A DNA stretch of 64,000 nucleotides from Pedococcus sp. 5OH_020 (lineage in GTDB: Bacteria > Actinomycetota > Actinomycetes > Actinomycetales > Dermatophilaceae): contig NZ_JAPYZV010000008.1 of NCBI RefSeq assembly GCF_027812955.1, positions 186,001-250,000 of the forward strand, in the 5' to 3' direction. The position numbers and the translations under genes are program-made. Positions within the stretch are counted from its first letter, which is position 1; each line of letters starts with the position of its first letter. Below the pieces are notes generated by a model, which saw nothing but the letters and a program-made list of their open reading frames with translations, did not search any database and had not been told where the DNA came from. Of the stretch, positions 53,231 through 58,742 are shown in pieces.

Positions 53231-53854
53231 CTAGAGACGGCCTGCCGCCGACTCGCCGAAACGGCCCCAGTGCACGACCTCGGCCGAGGGCCGACGGCCG
53301 CGGCGAAGGCTCGGGGAGGTGGTCCGCTCCCGCTCGTGGCCCAGCGCGACGACGCCCACCAGCCGGCGGCCTGCTGGGATGTCGTAGGCGTGTCGCACCG
53401 GCTCGTGGCGGGCCGGCGGGACCCCGAAGAAGAGCGCGCCGAGACCCTGGTCGACGGCAGCCAGCAGCATGAGCATCGCCGCCATGCCGGTGTCCACGTC
53501 CCAGTACGGGACCGGCCACCGGGCGAGGTCCCGGTCGTCCCAGCCCTTGTCCGCCTCGGCGTACCGGTCCAGATAGGTGTCGGGGTCGGAGAGGCACAGG
53601 ATGAGGACCGGTGCGGCCGACACCCCCCGCAGCCACGAGCCAGGCGGTCGGTGGTCGTCACGCGTGGCGTCCCAGAACCTCGCACGGTCCTGTGGGTCGG
53701 CGAGGACCAGGAAGTCCCAGCCCTGGCTGAACCCGGCACTGGGCGCGCGCTGTGCGGCCCGTAACACGTGACCCAGCGCGCCGGGGGTGACCGTCCGCAC
53801 CGGGTCGAACCGGCGCACCATCCGTCGCCGGCGCACGACCTCGCGAAACTCCAT
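53231..53854 (-). CDS. Nitroreductase-family protein
   Basis: A 207-aa flavin enzyme. The N-terminus MEFREVVRRRRMVRRFDPVRTV is the FMN-binding Arg cluster of the nitroreductase family. APSAGFSQGWDFLVLADP gives the Ser/Gln/Trp block, and the end has GLGALFFGVPPARHEPVRHA. It likely works as a homodimer with FMN and NAD(P)H; the substrate (nitro compound, quinone or other) cannot be told. CAGGAT lies six bases before the ATG, a possible leaderless promoter. Confidence 0.9.
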   Translation of the reverse strand: MEFREVVRRRRMVRRFDPVRTVTPGALGHVLRAAQRAPSAGFSQGWDFLVLADPQDRARFWDATRDDHRPPGSWLRGVSAAPVLILCLSDPDTYLDRYAEADKGWDDRDLARWPVPYWDVDTGMAAMLMLLAAVDQGLGALFFGVPPARHEPVRHAYDIPAGRRLVGVVALGHERERTTSPSLRRGRRPSAEVVHWGRFGESAAGRL

Positions 53855-53977
53855 GCGCCCATCCTGTCCTCCTGCGCCGGTAACGGCTGACACACTGGCC
53901 ACCAACCTGGCCCACCGGCACGGCGTCAACCAGGCATGACGTCTGTGGCGGCGGTGGCATTCGCGGGAGGGGTGCTC

Positions 53978-54475
53978 GTGCCGTCGCGTGACCGAACGGA
54001 CCTCGACGGGGCAGTCCGCGAGATCTACGACGTCCACTACGCCCGGCTCGCGGGTTGGACGGCGCGGCTGGTCGGAGACCCGGACCTGGCCCACGACCTG
54101 GCGACGGAGGCGTTCCTCAAGCTGTACCGCGAGTTCTCGCGGGTCGACGACCCCAGACCCTGGCTCTACGCGGTCACTGCCAACCTCGTCCGGGACCACT
54201 GGCGCAAACGGGGACGGGAGGCCACGGCGTACCAGCGGCACGAGGCAGGCCGTCAGGACTTCACGGCCGACCCGGACACGGCGACGACCCTCACGGTGCG
54301 GGAGGCGGTCCAGGCCCTGCCGGACCGGTTGCGGGTCGTGGTGATGCTGCACTACTTCGCCGACCTGCCGGTCGCCACGGTGGCCCGTCAGCTCGACAAG
54401 GCCGAGGGGACCGTGAAGCGAGACCTGTTCGACGCGCGCCAGCGGATGGCGCAGATGCTGGGAGAGAGCCGATGA
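53978..54475 (+). CDS. ECF-type RNA polymerase sigma factor
   Basis: A 165-aa sigma factor from the GTG at 53978, with GGGAGG seven bases upstream; an in-frame ATG at 53936 would add 14 residues. Region 2 is REIYDVHYARLAGWTARLVG through DLATEAFLKLYREF and PRPWLYAVTANLVRDHWRK. Region 4 is PDRLRVVVMLHYFADLPVAT and the helix-turn-helix AEGTVKRDLFDARQRM. Region 3 is missing, as in the ECF group. Its stop overlaps the start of the next, membrane-anchored gene (ATGA), the usual sign of a sigma/anti-sigma pair. Confidence 0.92.
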   Translation: MPSRDRTDLDGAVREIYDVHYARLAGWTARLVGDPDLAHDLATEAFLKLYREFSRVDDPRPWLYAVTANLVRDHWRKRGREATAYQRHEAGRQDFTADPDTATTLTVREAVQALPDRLRVVVMLHYFADLPVATVARQLDKAEGTVKRDLFDARQRMAQMLGESR

Positions 54476-56031
54476 GCCCGACACAGGACCCCTTCGACCG
54501 GGAACCGCGGCAGCGTGACCCGGTCGCGGACTTCTTTGCCAGGGAACGCGCCATGGTCCGTGACCTCGTCCCGCGACCGGAACATTTCGAGTCGATCCTG
54601 ACGGAGGCGGGCCGGCCCTCGGGGCGCCGCTGGCTGCCGTACGTCGCCGTGGCGGCGGCGGCGGCGATCGCCGGAGCGGTCGGTCTCGGTGTCCTGCAGG
54701 GCAAGGGCGGGGGACCGGACCATGTCGACGTGGCGAGCTCCACGCGGACGAGCGCCGAGGTCCAGGTCAGCTCCACGACGAGGCCGGGGACGAGGACCGT
54801 GACGGGGCCCGTCTCAGCCTCGGGACCGACCACGAGCCCCAGCCGCTCCACCAGCACGCCGCCGCCGACGGGTGGCGCACCGCGGCCGCTGCCCGTGCCG
54901 AGGTCGTTCGACATCGCCTCCATGTCGAACGCCGGCGGCGGGCACCTCTTCGCCCTGGGCGCCGCGACGTGTCCCGGCGGCCCCTGCACCGCCGTGGTGG
55001 CCTCGGACGACGACGGCCGGAGCTGGGCGTCCCGCTCCTCCCTCACCGGGCTCAGGACTTCCGGCGCCAGGGTGACGCCGGACCGGCCGGACCAGCTGGT
55101 CGGGCTGAGGTTCGCCTCGGACCGGATCGGCTATGTCTTCGGCAGTGTCGTGCGCCGCACTTCCGACGGCGGCCGGACCTGGCATGCGGTGGACGTCGGC
55201 GGCCGGGTGGTGCTCTCGCTCGAGACCGACGGTCGACAGGTCTGGATGGCCACAGCCGGCAGCTGCACCCATGGCGGCAGCCGACGCGGCTGCCACGACC
55301 TCCAGCCGCGCACCGGTGCGGTGACGCAGGACTCCACCCGGCCGGTGGCCGTGCCTTCCATGCCCACGGACGCGGAGAACGCCTGGGTCGCGATGGACGG
55401 GTCCGACGCCTACTACAACGTCACGACGGCAGGGCAGCGGCACCCCGCGCTCGCCGCCAGGCTCTCCGGCAAGCCTGCCGCCCTGTCCTTGCCGGAAGGC
55501 TGCGCCGCCGACCAGGGGATGTGGGTGTCCGCCACCGCCAGCACCCGAGGGACACTGCTCGCGGTCTGCCCCAGTGCGGGGCGGCCCACCCAGGGATACG
55601 CGGTCGCCGTCTCCACGGACCGTGGTGCCAGCTGGTCCAGCCGCCCTGCTCCAGCCCTGGGCCGGCCCGGCGGAAGCGGGGTCTGGCTGACCGCGAACGA
55701 CCCTGCACACCTCGTCGTCCTTCGCGAGGGGCTGCCATCGAGCGCCGACGGAGCGGACGTGTCCACCACCCTGGTGGTCAGCGACGATGCCGGCAAGACC
55801 TGGCGGCCCGGTGTGCTGGGCGCTCCCGGCATCGCAGGCGGGACCTCGTCCACGCCGGGCACAGGCACATCGTCGTCCGGCAACAACGGGTCCGACCGCA
55901 CCACCGGATCGACGGTGACGTGGGCCGGCGCCGCCGGTGGTGGCCTCGTCTACGCGCTCGCCGGGGGCACGTCGTACTGGCTGAGCACGGATGCGGGAAT
56001 GACCTTCGCGTCGGTGCCTTTGCGCAGGTAG
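54472..56031 (+). CDS. Membrane-anchored Asp-box (BNR) protein, candidate anti-sigma partner
   Basis: A 519-aa protein overlapping the sigma-factor stop by 4 bp. Residues 1-50 are charged and cytoplasmic, residues about 55-76 form one membrane helix, and 85-145 is a Ser/Thr/Pro-rich linker. The extracellular part has five Asp-box/BNR-like turns: SDDDGRSW, TSDGGRTW, STDRGASW, SDDAGKTW and STDAGMTF, suggesting a beta-propeller. Glycan or ligand binding outside could signal to the sigma factor. No zinc anti-sigma HxxxCxxC motif is present, so the anti-sigma role is inferred from coupling and topology. Confidence 0.82.
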   Translation: MSPTQDPFDREPRQRDPVADFFARERAMVRDLVPRPEHFESILTEAGRPSGRRWLPYVAVAAAAAIAGAVGLGVLQGKGGGPDHVDVASSTRTSAEVQVSSTTRPGTRTVTGPVSASGPTTSPSRSTSTPPPTGGAPRPLPVPRSFDIASMSNAGGGHLFALGAATCPGGPCTAVVASDDDGRSWASRSSLTGLRTSGARVTPDRPDQLVGLRFASDRIGYVFGSVVRRTSDGGRTWHAVDVGGRVVLSLETDGRQVWMATAGSCTHGGSRRGCHDLQPRTGAVTQDSTRPVAVPSMPTDAENAWVAMDGSDAYYNVTTAGQRHPALAARLSGKPAALSLPEGCAADQGMWVSATASTRGTLLAVCPSAGRPTQGYAVAVSTDRGASWSSRPAPALGRPGGSGVWLTANDPAHLVVLREGLPSSADGADVSTTLVVSDDAGKTWRPGVLGAPGIAGGTSSTPGTGTSSSGNNGSDRTTGSTVTWAGAAGGGLVYALAGGTSYWLSTDAGMTFASVPLRR

Positions 56032-56075: not shown

Positions 56076-58742
56076 ATGACTGACGCAGGGGGCCGTCCCG
56101 CTGGCTACCCCGCCCAGTGGGAGGCCGACGTCGTACTGCGCGACGGCTCGGTGGCGCACCTTCGCCCCATCACGCCCAGCGACGTGGAGGCGGTGCACCG
56201 GTTCCACGCCGGCCAGTCCGACGAGTCGATCTACATGCGCTTCTTCGCGCCGCTGCGCAAGCTCAGCGACCGGGACGTCACCCGGTTCACCAACGTGGAC
56301 TACCACGACCGGGTGGCGCTGGTCGCCACGGTGCGCGGCGAGATCATCGGCATCGGCCGGTTCGACCGGATCACGCCGGTCAGCGCAGAGGTGGCCTTCA
56401 ACATCTCCGACTCCTACCAGGGGCGCGGCATCGGCTCGGTGCTCCTGGAGCACCTGGCGGTGATCGCGTGGGAGTCCGGCGTGGAGGAGTTCACCGCGGA
56501 GGTCCTCCCGCAGAACCGCAAGATGATCTCGGTCTTCAGCGACGCGGGCTACGAGGTCGACCGTCGCTTCCAGGACGGCGTCGTCTCGCTGCGCTTCCAG
56601 ATCCAGCCCACCGAACGGTCCGAGGCCGTACGCCTGTCACGGGAGCACCGTGCGGAGTCGGTGAGCATGCACTCGGTCCTGTTCCCCGACTCGATCGCGG
56701 TCGTCGGAGCGAGCCGGCGTGCCGACTCGATCGGTCACCACATCCTCGCCAACATCCAGGCGGGCGGCTTCCACGGCGCGGTGCACGCCGTCAACCGCGA
56801 GGCGATGGAGGTGCTGGGCCTGCCCGCCCACGCCAGGCTCTCGGACATCCCGGACGGGGTGGACCTCGCCGTGGTCGCGGTACCCGCCGAGGAGGTCCTC
56901 GACGTCGTCGCCGACTGCGCCGAGGCAGGGGTCAAGACCCTGCTCGTCGTCACCGCCGGCTTCGCGGAGGCCGGCGACGCGGGGGAGGAGCTGCAGCGCC
57001 GTCTGCTCACCGCCGCCCGAGAGTCCGGCATGCGGGTGCTCGGTCCCAACTCGTTCGGTGTCATCAACAACCACCCGGACGTGCGGCTCAACGCCTCGCT
57101 GGCTCCGGCGCTGCCGCCGGCCGGCCGGCTGGGACTGTTCGCGCAGAGCGGCGCCCTGGGCATCGCCGTCCTGGCGTCGGCCGCGAGGCGAGGTCTGGGC
57201 ATCTCCGTCTTCGCTTCGGCAGGGAACCGCGTCGACGTCTCCGGCAACGACTTCATGCAGTACTGGATCGACGACCAGGACACCGACACGGTGGGGCTCT
57301 ACCTCGAGTCGATGGGGAACCCGCGCAAGTTCTCCCGGATCGCCCGTCGGCTGGCGTCGACCAAGCCGGTCATCGTGGTGAAGTCAGGGGTGTCCTCGTA
57401 CGGCGTGCCTCCCGGGCACCGGGCACGTCCGACGCGGGTGCGCCCAGAAGCCTTCGACGCGATGCTGCGGCAGGCGGGCGTCATCCGCGTGGAGAACGTC
57501 CACCAGATGTTCGACGTCGCCCAGCTCGTCACGCACCAGCACCTGCCCGGCGGCAACCGGGTCGCCATCGTCGGGAACTCGGACGCGCTGGGCGCGCTCA
57601 CCGCCGAAGCATGCGTGAGCTGGGGGCTGGAGGTCGCCCACGGGCCGGTCTCCCTACCCAGCGACGCGCGCGGCGAGCAGTTCGCCGAAGCTCTCCGCAG
57701 CGCCTTCGGCGACTCCGAGGTCGACAGCGTCCTGACCTGCTTCATCCCACCCCTGGTCACCCTCGACGAGGACGTCGCGACGGCGGTGCGCGACGCCGCG
57801 ATGGCGACGGACAAGCCGTGCCTGGCGACCTTCCTGGGTATGCGCGGCGTCTCCGAGCGGCTCTCGGGCACGGCACCGGACGGCCGCCGGGTCGTCGTTC
57901 CCGCGTACTCGATGCCCGAGGACGCGGTGCGGGCGCTCGCCGGTGCGACCCGGTACGCCGAGTGGCGGGCTCGCGACCGCGGCGTCCCGGTACGACCCGC
58001 CGGGATCGACCGCGAGGCGGCCGAGCAGCTGGTCGAGAAGGTTCTCGCGGAGTCGCCCGACGGTCGACGGCTCACGCAGCAGGAGGTCACCGCCCTGCTG
58101 GAGCCGTACGGCGTGCGCGTCTGGGGCAGCGTGCCGGTCCGCACCGTGGAGGAGGCCGTGGCCGCCGCCGAGTCGATCGGTTACCCGGTCGTCGTCAAGT
58201 CGGTCGCCCCGCTCATGCGGCATCAGCCCGGGTTGAGCGGCATCAGGGTGGACCTGCGCTCGGAGGCCCAGCTCCGAGAGGCGTTCGCCGGGCTGAACGA
58301 CCGGCTGGCGCCGCTGTCCGCGAACTCGTTCGTCGTGCAGCGGATGGCGGCGCCCGGAGTGTCCTGCGTCGTCCGCACCGACGAGGACCCGCTCTTCGGC
58401 CCGGTCGTGTCCTTCAGCATCGCCGGGCCGCCGACCGAGCTGCTGGGCGACATCGGCTACCGGATCCCACCGTTGACCGACGTGGACGTCTCCGACCTGA
58501 TCTCCTCGGTGAAGGCGGCGCCCATGCTGCACGGGCACCGCGGGGCCGCCCCGGTGCATCGAGCCGCCCTCTCGGACCTCGTCGCCCGTGTCTCGGTGCT
58601 CGCCGACAACCTGCCCGAGATCGCCAGCCTCGTGCTCAACCCGGTCAACGCCCACCCCGCCGGGGTCGACGTCCTGGGGGCTGAGGTGGTCCTCGCGCCG
58701 ACCCCGCGCCGCAAGGACACGGGCCGCCGCACCCTGACCTGA
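56076..58742 (+). CDS. GNAT acetyltransferase / NDP-forming acyl-CoA synthetase-like fusion (Pat-like)
   Basis: An 888-aa protein. The N-terminal 165 residues are a GNAT domain (SDSYQGRGIGSVLLEHLAVI binds acetyl-CoA). A CoA-binding Rossmann domain (VVGASRRADSIGHHIL), a succinyl-CoA-ligase-like domain and a C-terminal ATP-grasp fold (YPVVVKSVAPLMRHQPG) follow. Such proteins acetylate lysines of acyl-CoA synthetases; here GNAT comes first, as in Streptomyces Pat, the reverse of the Salmonella order. The phosphohistidine loop is altered: H448 is kept but SHTGAL is lost (see findings). The ATG at 56064 is an alternative start. Confidence 0.9.
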   Translation: MTDAGGRPAGYPAQWEADVVLRDGSVAHLRPITPSDVEAVHRFHAGQSDESIYMRFFAPLRKLSDRDVTRFTNVDYHDRVALVATVRGEIIGIGRFDRITPVSAEVAFNISDSYQGRGIGSVLLEHLAVIAWESGVEEFTAEVLPQNRKMISVFSDAGYEVDRRFQDGVVSLRFQIQPTERSEAVRLSREHRAESVSMHSVLFPDSIAVVGASRRADSIGHHILANIQAGGFHGAVHAVNREAMEVLGLPAHARLSDIPDGVDLAVVAVPAEEVLDVVADCAEAGVKTLLVVTAGFAEAGDAGEELQRRLLTAARESGMRVLGPNSFGVINNHPDVRLNASLAPALPPAGRLGLFAQSGALGIAVLASAARRGLGISVFASAGNRVDVSGNDFMQYWIDDQDTDTVGLYLESMGNPRKFSRIARRLASTKPVIVVKSGVSSYGVPPGHRARPTRVRPEAFDAMLRQAGVIRVENVHQMFDVAQLVTHQHLPGGNRVAIVGNSDALGALTAEACVSWGLEVAHGPVSLPSDARGEQFAEALRSAFGDSEVDSVLTCFIPPLVTLDEDVATAVRDAAMATDKPCLATFLGMRGVSERLSGTAPDGRRVVVPAYSMPEDAVRALAGATRYAEWRARDRGVPVRPAGIDREAAEQLVEKVLAESPDGRRLTQQEVTALLEPYGVRVWGSVPVRTVEEAVAAAESIGYPVVVKSVAPLMRHQPGLSGIRVDLRSEAQLREAFAGLNDRLAPLSANSFVVQRMAAPGVSCVVRTDEDPLFGPVVSFSIAGPPTELLGDIGYRIPPLTDVDVSDLISSVKAAPMLHGHRGAAPVHRAALSDLVARVSVLADNLPEIASLVLNPVNAHPAGVDVLGAEVVLAPTPRRKDTGRRTLT

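Follow-up and report, generated by a model that had tools for sequence, protein, structure and literature searches.

The window, i.e., the whole 64,000-nucleotide stretch of DNA that was analysed, carries an ECF sigma factor gene overlapped at its 3′ end by a gene for a membrane protein with an Asp-box β-propeller. In our opinion, this partner is likely to be a zinc-free, CnrY-like membrane anti-sigma factor that uses its propeller as a sensor and drives an autoregulated envelope response. According to this model, which is drawn from sequence, the two-helix, zinc-free head would keep the sigma factor at the membrane, clamping sigma2 and sigma4, while the propeller, held outside the cell on a flexible stalk, would serve as the sensor. 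A change in the cell wall or surface would make the head free the sigma factor, whether through a conformational change or by regulated proteolysis, and the freed sigma factor would then transcribe its own operon from the promoter CCAACC-N14-GGCGTC, as well as the gene of an L,D-transpeptidase lipoprotein and, where present, that of a second lipoprotein. L,D-transpeptidases make 3-3 peptidoglycan cross-links. The model also delineates a circuit open to testing, in which the sensor domain, the minimal head free of zinc, the promoter sequence, and the cell-wall target are all specified, and lets one ask directly whether an Asp-box propeller can do the sensing for an anti-sigma factor.

The sigma factor gene (53936..54475, forward strand) encodes 179 aa when read from ATG 53936. 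The Pfam scan confirms that the product is an ECF sigma factor, as had been predicted: Sigma70_r2 (PF04542, 46 bits) and Sigma70_r4_2 (PF08281, 45.2 bits), i.e., the combination of region 2 and region 4 only that defines this class, both score above cut-off within 165 aa. The best NCBIfam match, TIGR02983 (the SigE family), scores 96.6 bits, under its curated cut-off of 141.55, and does not place the protein in that family. The start at 53978 given originally is probably not the true one. The GTG at this position is an internal, in-frame start that follows a GGGAGG stretch recognized by eye, and ATG 53936 is preferred since an in-frame ATG or GTG stands 8–9 nt 3′ of the ECF promoter at all 24 promoter-bearing loci (the RTG pattern was defined after a first look at the upstream sequences). 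The true start is thus probably ATG 53936, and the transcript probably leaderless. Several relatives also show GGGAGG-like stretches.

The second gene (54472..56031) encodes the candidate membrane anti-sigma factor, a protein of 519 aa; all of its regions lie on the forward strand. As originally predicted, its ATG at 54472 overlaps the sigma factor stop codon (TGA, 54473–54475) in an ATGA, and its N-terminal head is charged, with 10 acidic and 10 basic residues within positions 1–53 (54472..54630). The head contains the motif DPVxxFFxxxR and predicted helices at residues 17–28 and 36–46, and has F39 at a position where relatives commonly have W. It is followed by a single transmembrane helix (approximately residues 54–75; 54631..54696), whose hydropathy peak at 57–75 is the sole strongly hydrophobic stretch of the protein, in keeping with the one helix expected; by a stalk (approximately residues 76–139; 54697..54888) with a Ser/Thr/Pro content of 52% over residues 77–139; and by the β-propeller (residues 140–519; 54889..56028), which contains six Cys. 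All five Asp-boxes counted at first reading were recovered with the strict motif, at positions 178, 230, 381, 437, and 505; when residues 81–519 were shuffled 10,000 times, the motif count averaged 0.006 and never exceeded 1. The repeated S/T-x-D-x-G-x-S/T-W/F turns within a propeller, together with a PF02012 (BNR) match above cut-off in the Pfam scan, identify this region as an Asp-box β-propeller. Three Arg immediately N-terminal to the membrane helix, together with the Cys on its C-terminal side that are invariant in the partner alignment A1 (four in number: C167, C172, C344, and C366 of the propeller), suggest that the head lies inside the cell and the propeller outside.

An AlphaFold2 model of the partner, built with 24 sequences (mean pLDDT 78.8), contains the two head helices, a membrane helix at residues 54–69, a low-confidence stalk (mostly pLDDT <50), and a propeller from approximately residue 140, in which pLDDT is mostly >90 apart from a loop near 451–480. 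Structure comparison of this model returned propellers at Z 19–21 over model residues ~142–511.

The first line of evidence for a functional link between the two genes is their recurrence as a pair within the family Dermatophilaceae. Partner matches occur in 23 of 58 genomes, own genome included, and in all 10 of the other genomes of the genus, where the G005 copy is more distant and placed differently. Every one of the 10 genomes with partner matches among 198 of the order belongs to the same family, and one named relative is a Dermatophilaceae MAG. Twenty-eight loci, window included, were compared; L035–L041, L045, L047, and L048 are second pieces of counted loci and were counted once, and L010 (Acidobacteriales) and L011 (Anaerolineaceae) were excluded as partial propeller matches, L011 being without a sigma match and L010 having one on the opposite strand, more than 2 kb off. 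A separate sigma gene lies directly 5′ of the partner at 25 of the 28 loci, and in all 25 pairs the genes overlap by 4 nt (23 ATGA and 2 GTGA; L028 has an alternative start 3 nt later). At one further locus, that of G029, a degenerate sigma factor, the head, the membrane helix, and the propeller form one open frame, a natural in-frame fusion (L032:1336-3318, contig C4); its sigma part has no Sigma70_r2 match, and r4_2 scores 20.7 bits vs a cut-off of 25.7. A search for the pair in other genomes, suggested as a check on the original prediction, thus succeeded within the family.

The second line of evidence is the conservation of the head and its joint loss with the sigma factor. In the 25 heads of alignment A2, the residues P17, F22, and R26 never vary, and conservation is at least 90% at D16 and F21, although the whole partners share only 24–57% identity with that of the window. 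At the two remaining loci (G019 and G033), no sigma gene is present and the motif DPxxxFFxxxR is also gone, while the propeller is kept (the protein start in G033 is uncertain); these partners sit 5′ of the usual GNAT gene, and that of G033 also adjoins the usual nitroreductase gene. Within the family, sigma factor and head were therefore lost together. Conversely, G026 keeps the sigma factor, the head, and the membrane helix with another, short ectodomain that has no Pfam family match (L034:1489-2325, contig C22), and is matched by head, membrane segment, and stalk only. In a tree of the ectodomains, G019, G033, G029, and G034 fall into one clade of eight (support 100/99), the other four members of which keep sigma factor and promoter. 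G034, in which the sigma factor is retained with both Pfam regions above cut-off, is the sister of G029 (100/100). The tree requires three changes, two of them forced by well-supported branches; 46 of 500 shuffles were equally low. Nature itself supplies comparisons here, in the form of the fusion, of the sensor swap, and of both loci that lack a sigma gene.

Outside the family, the full partner profile matched 12 genomes (of 17 matched among 197 of the class), and their 22 loci correspond to 19 distinct genes after merging pieces of one frame. A sigma gene lies directly 5′ of 11 of these genes, spread over 11 of the 12 genomes (the partner start in G280 is unsettled); the other 8 have no sigma gene 5′ in the fetched flank, and the head motif was seen in none of the 8, some frames being cut or their starts unsettled. 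Propellers of this kind thus exist without a sigma factor, yet head and sigma factor go together. The head profile itself, at E 0.001, matched 89 of 394 class genomes, the matches beyond the family being weak and partial. Among 24 loci taken from that search (L082–L105), an ECF sigma gene is found in 22, all but L090 and L100; several of the partners are, by eye, of the zinc-finger type, and for this reason the linkage is no demonstration of one head family.

These data bear on the strongest of the alternatives, namely that the propeller serves as an envelope protein performing its own task, in ligand binding or wall metabolism, and is only co-expressed with the sigma factor, the head being a minor add-on. 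Homologues lying away from sigma genes were named in the original prediction as what would refute the proposed link; such homologues are seen as propellers in G019, G033, and, as far as the fetched flanks go, the 8 outside genes, but the head motif was seen at none of these loci. The original interpretation is supported by this check. The conservation of the head residues in otherwise divergent partners and the retention of the head with a different ectodomain in G026 both argue against an add-on, and we consider this alternative improbable. There is also a wider, more tentative reading, to which we give somewhat less than even weight: DPxxxFFxxxR may be the mark, in this actinobacterial family, of a zinc-free two-helix anti-sigma head with swappable outer sensors (the propeller or the G026 ectodomain), and the propeller, which persists where sigma factor and head have been lost, may sense the envelope and have a further role that does not depend on the sigma factor. 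On this reading, the ligand of the propeller would tie the state of the wall to 3-3 cross-linking.

It is also conceivable, though a little less probable still, that the partner is no inhibitor, acting instead as a positive co-factor or tether required for sigma activity. The gene overlap and the G029 fusion are consistent with this, and neither tells the sign of the effect. The closest tested layout, however, is inhibitory: in the Tt-RpoE1/Tt-TolB pair of Thermoanaerobacter tengcongensis, a head of 39 aa binds the sigma factor and the protein inhibits transcription, according to the portion of the source available (PMC3397946). As described there, this system shares with the window the order of an ECF sigma gene, a short head, a single membrane-spanning segment, and an extensive C-terminal part, and differs in having a TolB domain, no Asp-boxes, and a 2-bp gap in place of the overlap; an L,D-transpeptidase link is not among the described features (PMC3397946). 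Pfam scans of 24 members of the partner group gave BNR/Asp-box families, and no TolB was among the families listed; the Tt-TolB type, with its C-terminal TolB domain, does not fit the group in this respect.

The modelled fusion also speaks against a positive co-factor, within limits. The sigma-head part of G029 was modelled over sigma rows only (alignment A5), with no other head row; the mixed alignment A4 of fusion, partners, and sigma factors scattered the sigma rows. In the model, the head helices have mean pLDDT 84–88 as far as residue 190, falling to 67 over residues 191–200. The sigma part resembles SigW from its complex with RsiW (Z 12.0, with an rmsd of 4.1 over 145) and CnrH from its complex with CnrY (Z 11.4, with an rmsd of 3.5 over 141), vs rmsd of ~27 for sigma factors from RNA polymerase complexes; it should be noted that Z 12 is below ~13, and that, according to a warning of the tool, the similarity of helical proteins under this level may be no more than one of general arrangement. 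SigK from an anti-sigma complex matches poorly (rmsd 10.2), and an equal fit is given by SigG1 (Z 10.9, rmsd 4.1), for which no anti-sigma partner is listed. The closed form of the sigma part in the model may not be due to the head, and the comparison hardly tests the head, since few alignment rows span it.

The third possibility, that the ectodomain has glycoside hydrolase activity of a sialidase or GH74-like kind and that the sigma link is secondary, would explain the weak BNR_2 matches and the GH74 and sialidase structures among the structural matches, but is very improbable: the RIP motif typical of sialidases is absent from the partner, BNR_2 scores 22.3 bits against a cut-off of 31.4, no hydrolase family exceeds its cut-off, and non-hydrolase propellers score nearly equally (Z 20.0 vs 21.2). 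A sialidase assignment is accordingly unsupported.

With regard to the candidate anti-sigma factor, its class can be narrowed by the head. The zinc-type class I motif HxxxCxxC occurs in none of the 25 heads of A2, which rules out a zinc anti-sigma factor; the window protein has no Cys in residues 1–55. The absence of this motif had been correctly noted at the outset, though treated as an oddity. It is in fact ordinary: in class I (RseA, RsiW, and RskA), whose anti-sigma domains belong to membrane proteins in about 65% of cases, the motif is missing from about 44% (PMC7406223). The window head, a putative anti-sigma head, is encoded beside an ECF gene, as in class I, but consists of two predicted helices rather than a three-helix bundle plus helix 4 (PMC7406223). 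In this respect, it resembles CnrY of the CnrH/CnrY system, a class II anti-sigma factor with a short two-helix head that contacts sigma2 and sigma4 (PMC7406223), the likeness being one of prediction and of the missing zinc motif. No sequence match between the head and CnrY was found; compared with PDB chains, the very short profile A2 gave three weak matches (E 0.22–0.97), none of them to an anti-sigma factor. A further difference is the propeller, which CnrY, to our knowledge, does not have. Asp-box turns and the propeller fold are shared with BNR proteins, Ycf48, the Vps10 domain of sortilin, and GH74 enzymes; unlike in those, the propeller is here joined to a head and a membrane helix and encoded beside a sigma gene. 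Among the literature matches listed, no Asp-box anti-sigma factor is described, and the group may have been named earlier. The general layout is already known; a zinc-free two-helix head that carries an Asp-box propeller and is encoded next to an ECF sigma factor appears to be a new variation.

The autoregulation in the proposed model is suggested by an ECF-type promoter, CCAACC-N14-GGCGTC (53902..53927, forward strand), which is common to the sigma loci of the family. In a scan that allowed N15 to N17, AACC-N16-CGTC was found 5′ of the sigma gene at 24 of 25 loci (with N17 in L043); neither G034 nor G029 showed such a promoter. The first genome-wide pattern, CCAACC-N14-GGCGTC, gave 62 matches in 11 genomes vs 11 for reversed controls, many of them within long open frames. 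A refined pattern, CAACC-N15-GCGTC-N7/8/9-RTGA, which was fitted to the sigma sites themselves, gave 48 matches in the 11 genus genomes vs 0 for the reversed pattern. Grouped by sequence and place, these include the window sigma gene (10 genomes), the L,D-transpeptidase (6), the second lipoprotein (4), and others (7); the remainder form two sets, in 11 and 10 genomes, grouped outside the own genome by sequence alone, whose own-genome copies lie just 5′ of two further ECF sigma genes. The partners of these two genes (L207, G000:C11, and L208, G000:C27) have other ectodomains, one with Gmad2 and one with no Pfam family.

The L,D-transpeptidase, which has Big_10 and YkuD above cut-off in the Pfam scan, is preceded by AACC-N16-CGTC, 117–148 nt 5′ of the homology start, in 10 of the 11 genus genomes, which as members of one genus are not independent. 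The own-genome site (C31:173702) lies outside the window and reads TGCGTC rather than GGCGTC. The chance level, estimated with random stretches of 430 nt from ten sigma loci, was 2.1% for the strict site; the looser form applied in the L,D-transpeptidase search reached 8.1%. The exception within the genus is G005, whose sigma gene has the autopromoter, another location, and 59.5% identity. The site was absent in all eight genomes outside the genus that have a homologue, among them G017, which has both the pair and the autopromoter; the L,D-transpeptidase link therefore holds in the genus only. The second lipoprotein (L210–L215; no Pfam family in the one member scanned) is present in 6 of the 11 genus genomes, not including the own genome, and has AACC-N16-CGTC 5′ in 6 of 6, the G002 match being weaker. 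The promoter spacers differ from one another, with a mean pairwise identity of 0.50 and 0.44, whereas the cores are alike, partly by selection.

The targets could instead be those of a paralogous sigma factor, given the two additional ECF sigma genes of the own genome and their promoter sites of like pattern. The base 5′ of GCGTC, however, is G in 10 of 10 window-sigma sites and in 9 of 10 L,D-transpeptidase sites, whereas the two further sets have C at 20 of their 21 sites, which hints at the window sigma factor as the driver of the L,D-transpeptidase. Judging from these sites, the window sigma factor probably switches on its own operon and the L,D-transpeptidase gene. Several other genes were not retained as regulon candidates: an LCP-like gene, named by eye, with CCAACC-N14-GGCGTC 5′ in two genomes (L132 in G004 and L149 in G001); dxs, with a site in the own genome only; and a secreted protein (G003 and G009) and a lipoprotein (G008). 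Sites in G007, G008, G010, and G006 were left out. SigmaE of Streptomyces coelicolor likewise controls L,D-transpeptidases, along with an LCP protein, in envelope stress, from promoters that are similar in many cases (AAC, 16–17 nt, GTC) (PMC6767563); unlike the window sigma factor, it is governed by the CseBC two-component system (PMC8999054).

The pair is flanked on both sides by genes that recur near it. Downstream, a GNAT/CoA-binding/ATP-grasp protein (56076..58742, forward strand) begins 44 nt 3′ of the partner and is a neighbour at most family loci; it is possibly co-transcribed. It was rejected as a fixed third member, since no match was found near the pair in G031 (judged on little downstream sequence), G021, G005, both G068 loci, and G026, and the match in G017 is weak and partial. 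On the other side, a nitroreductase-family gene (53231–53854) is divergent from the sigma gene and adjoins the pair at many loci.
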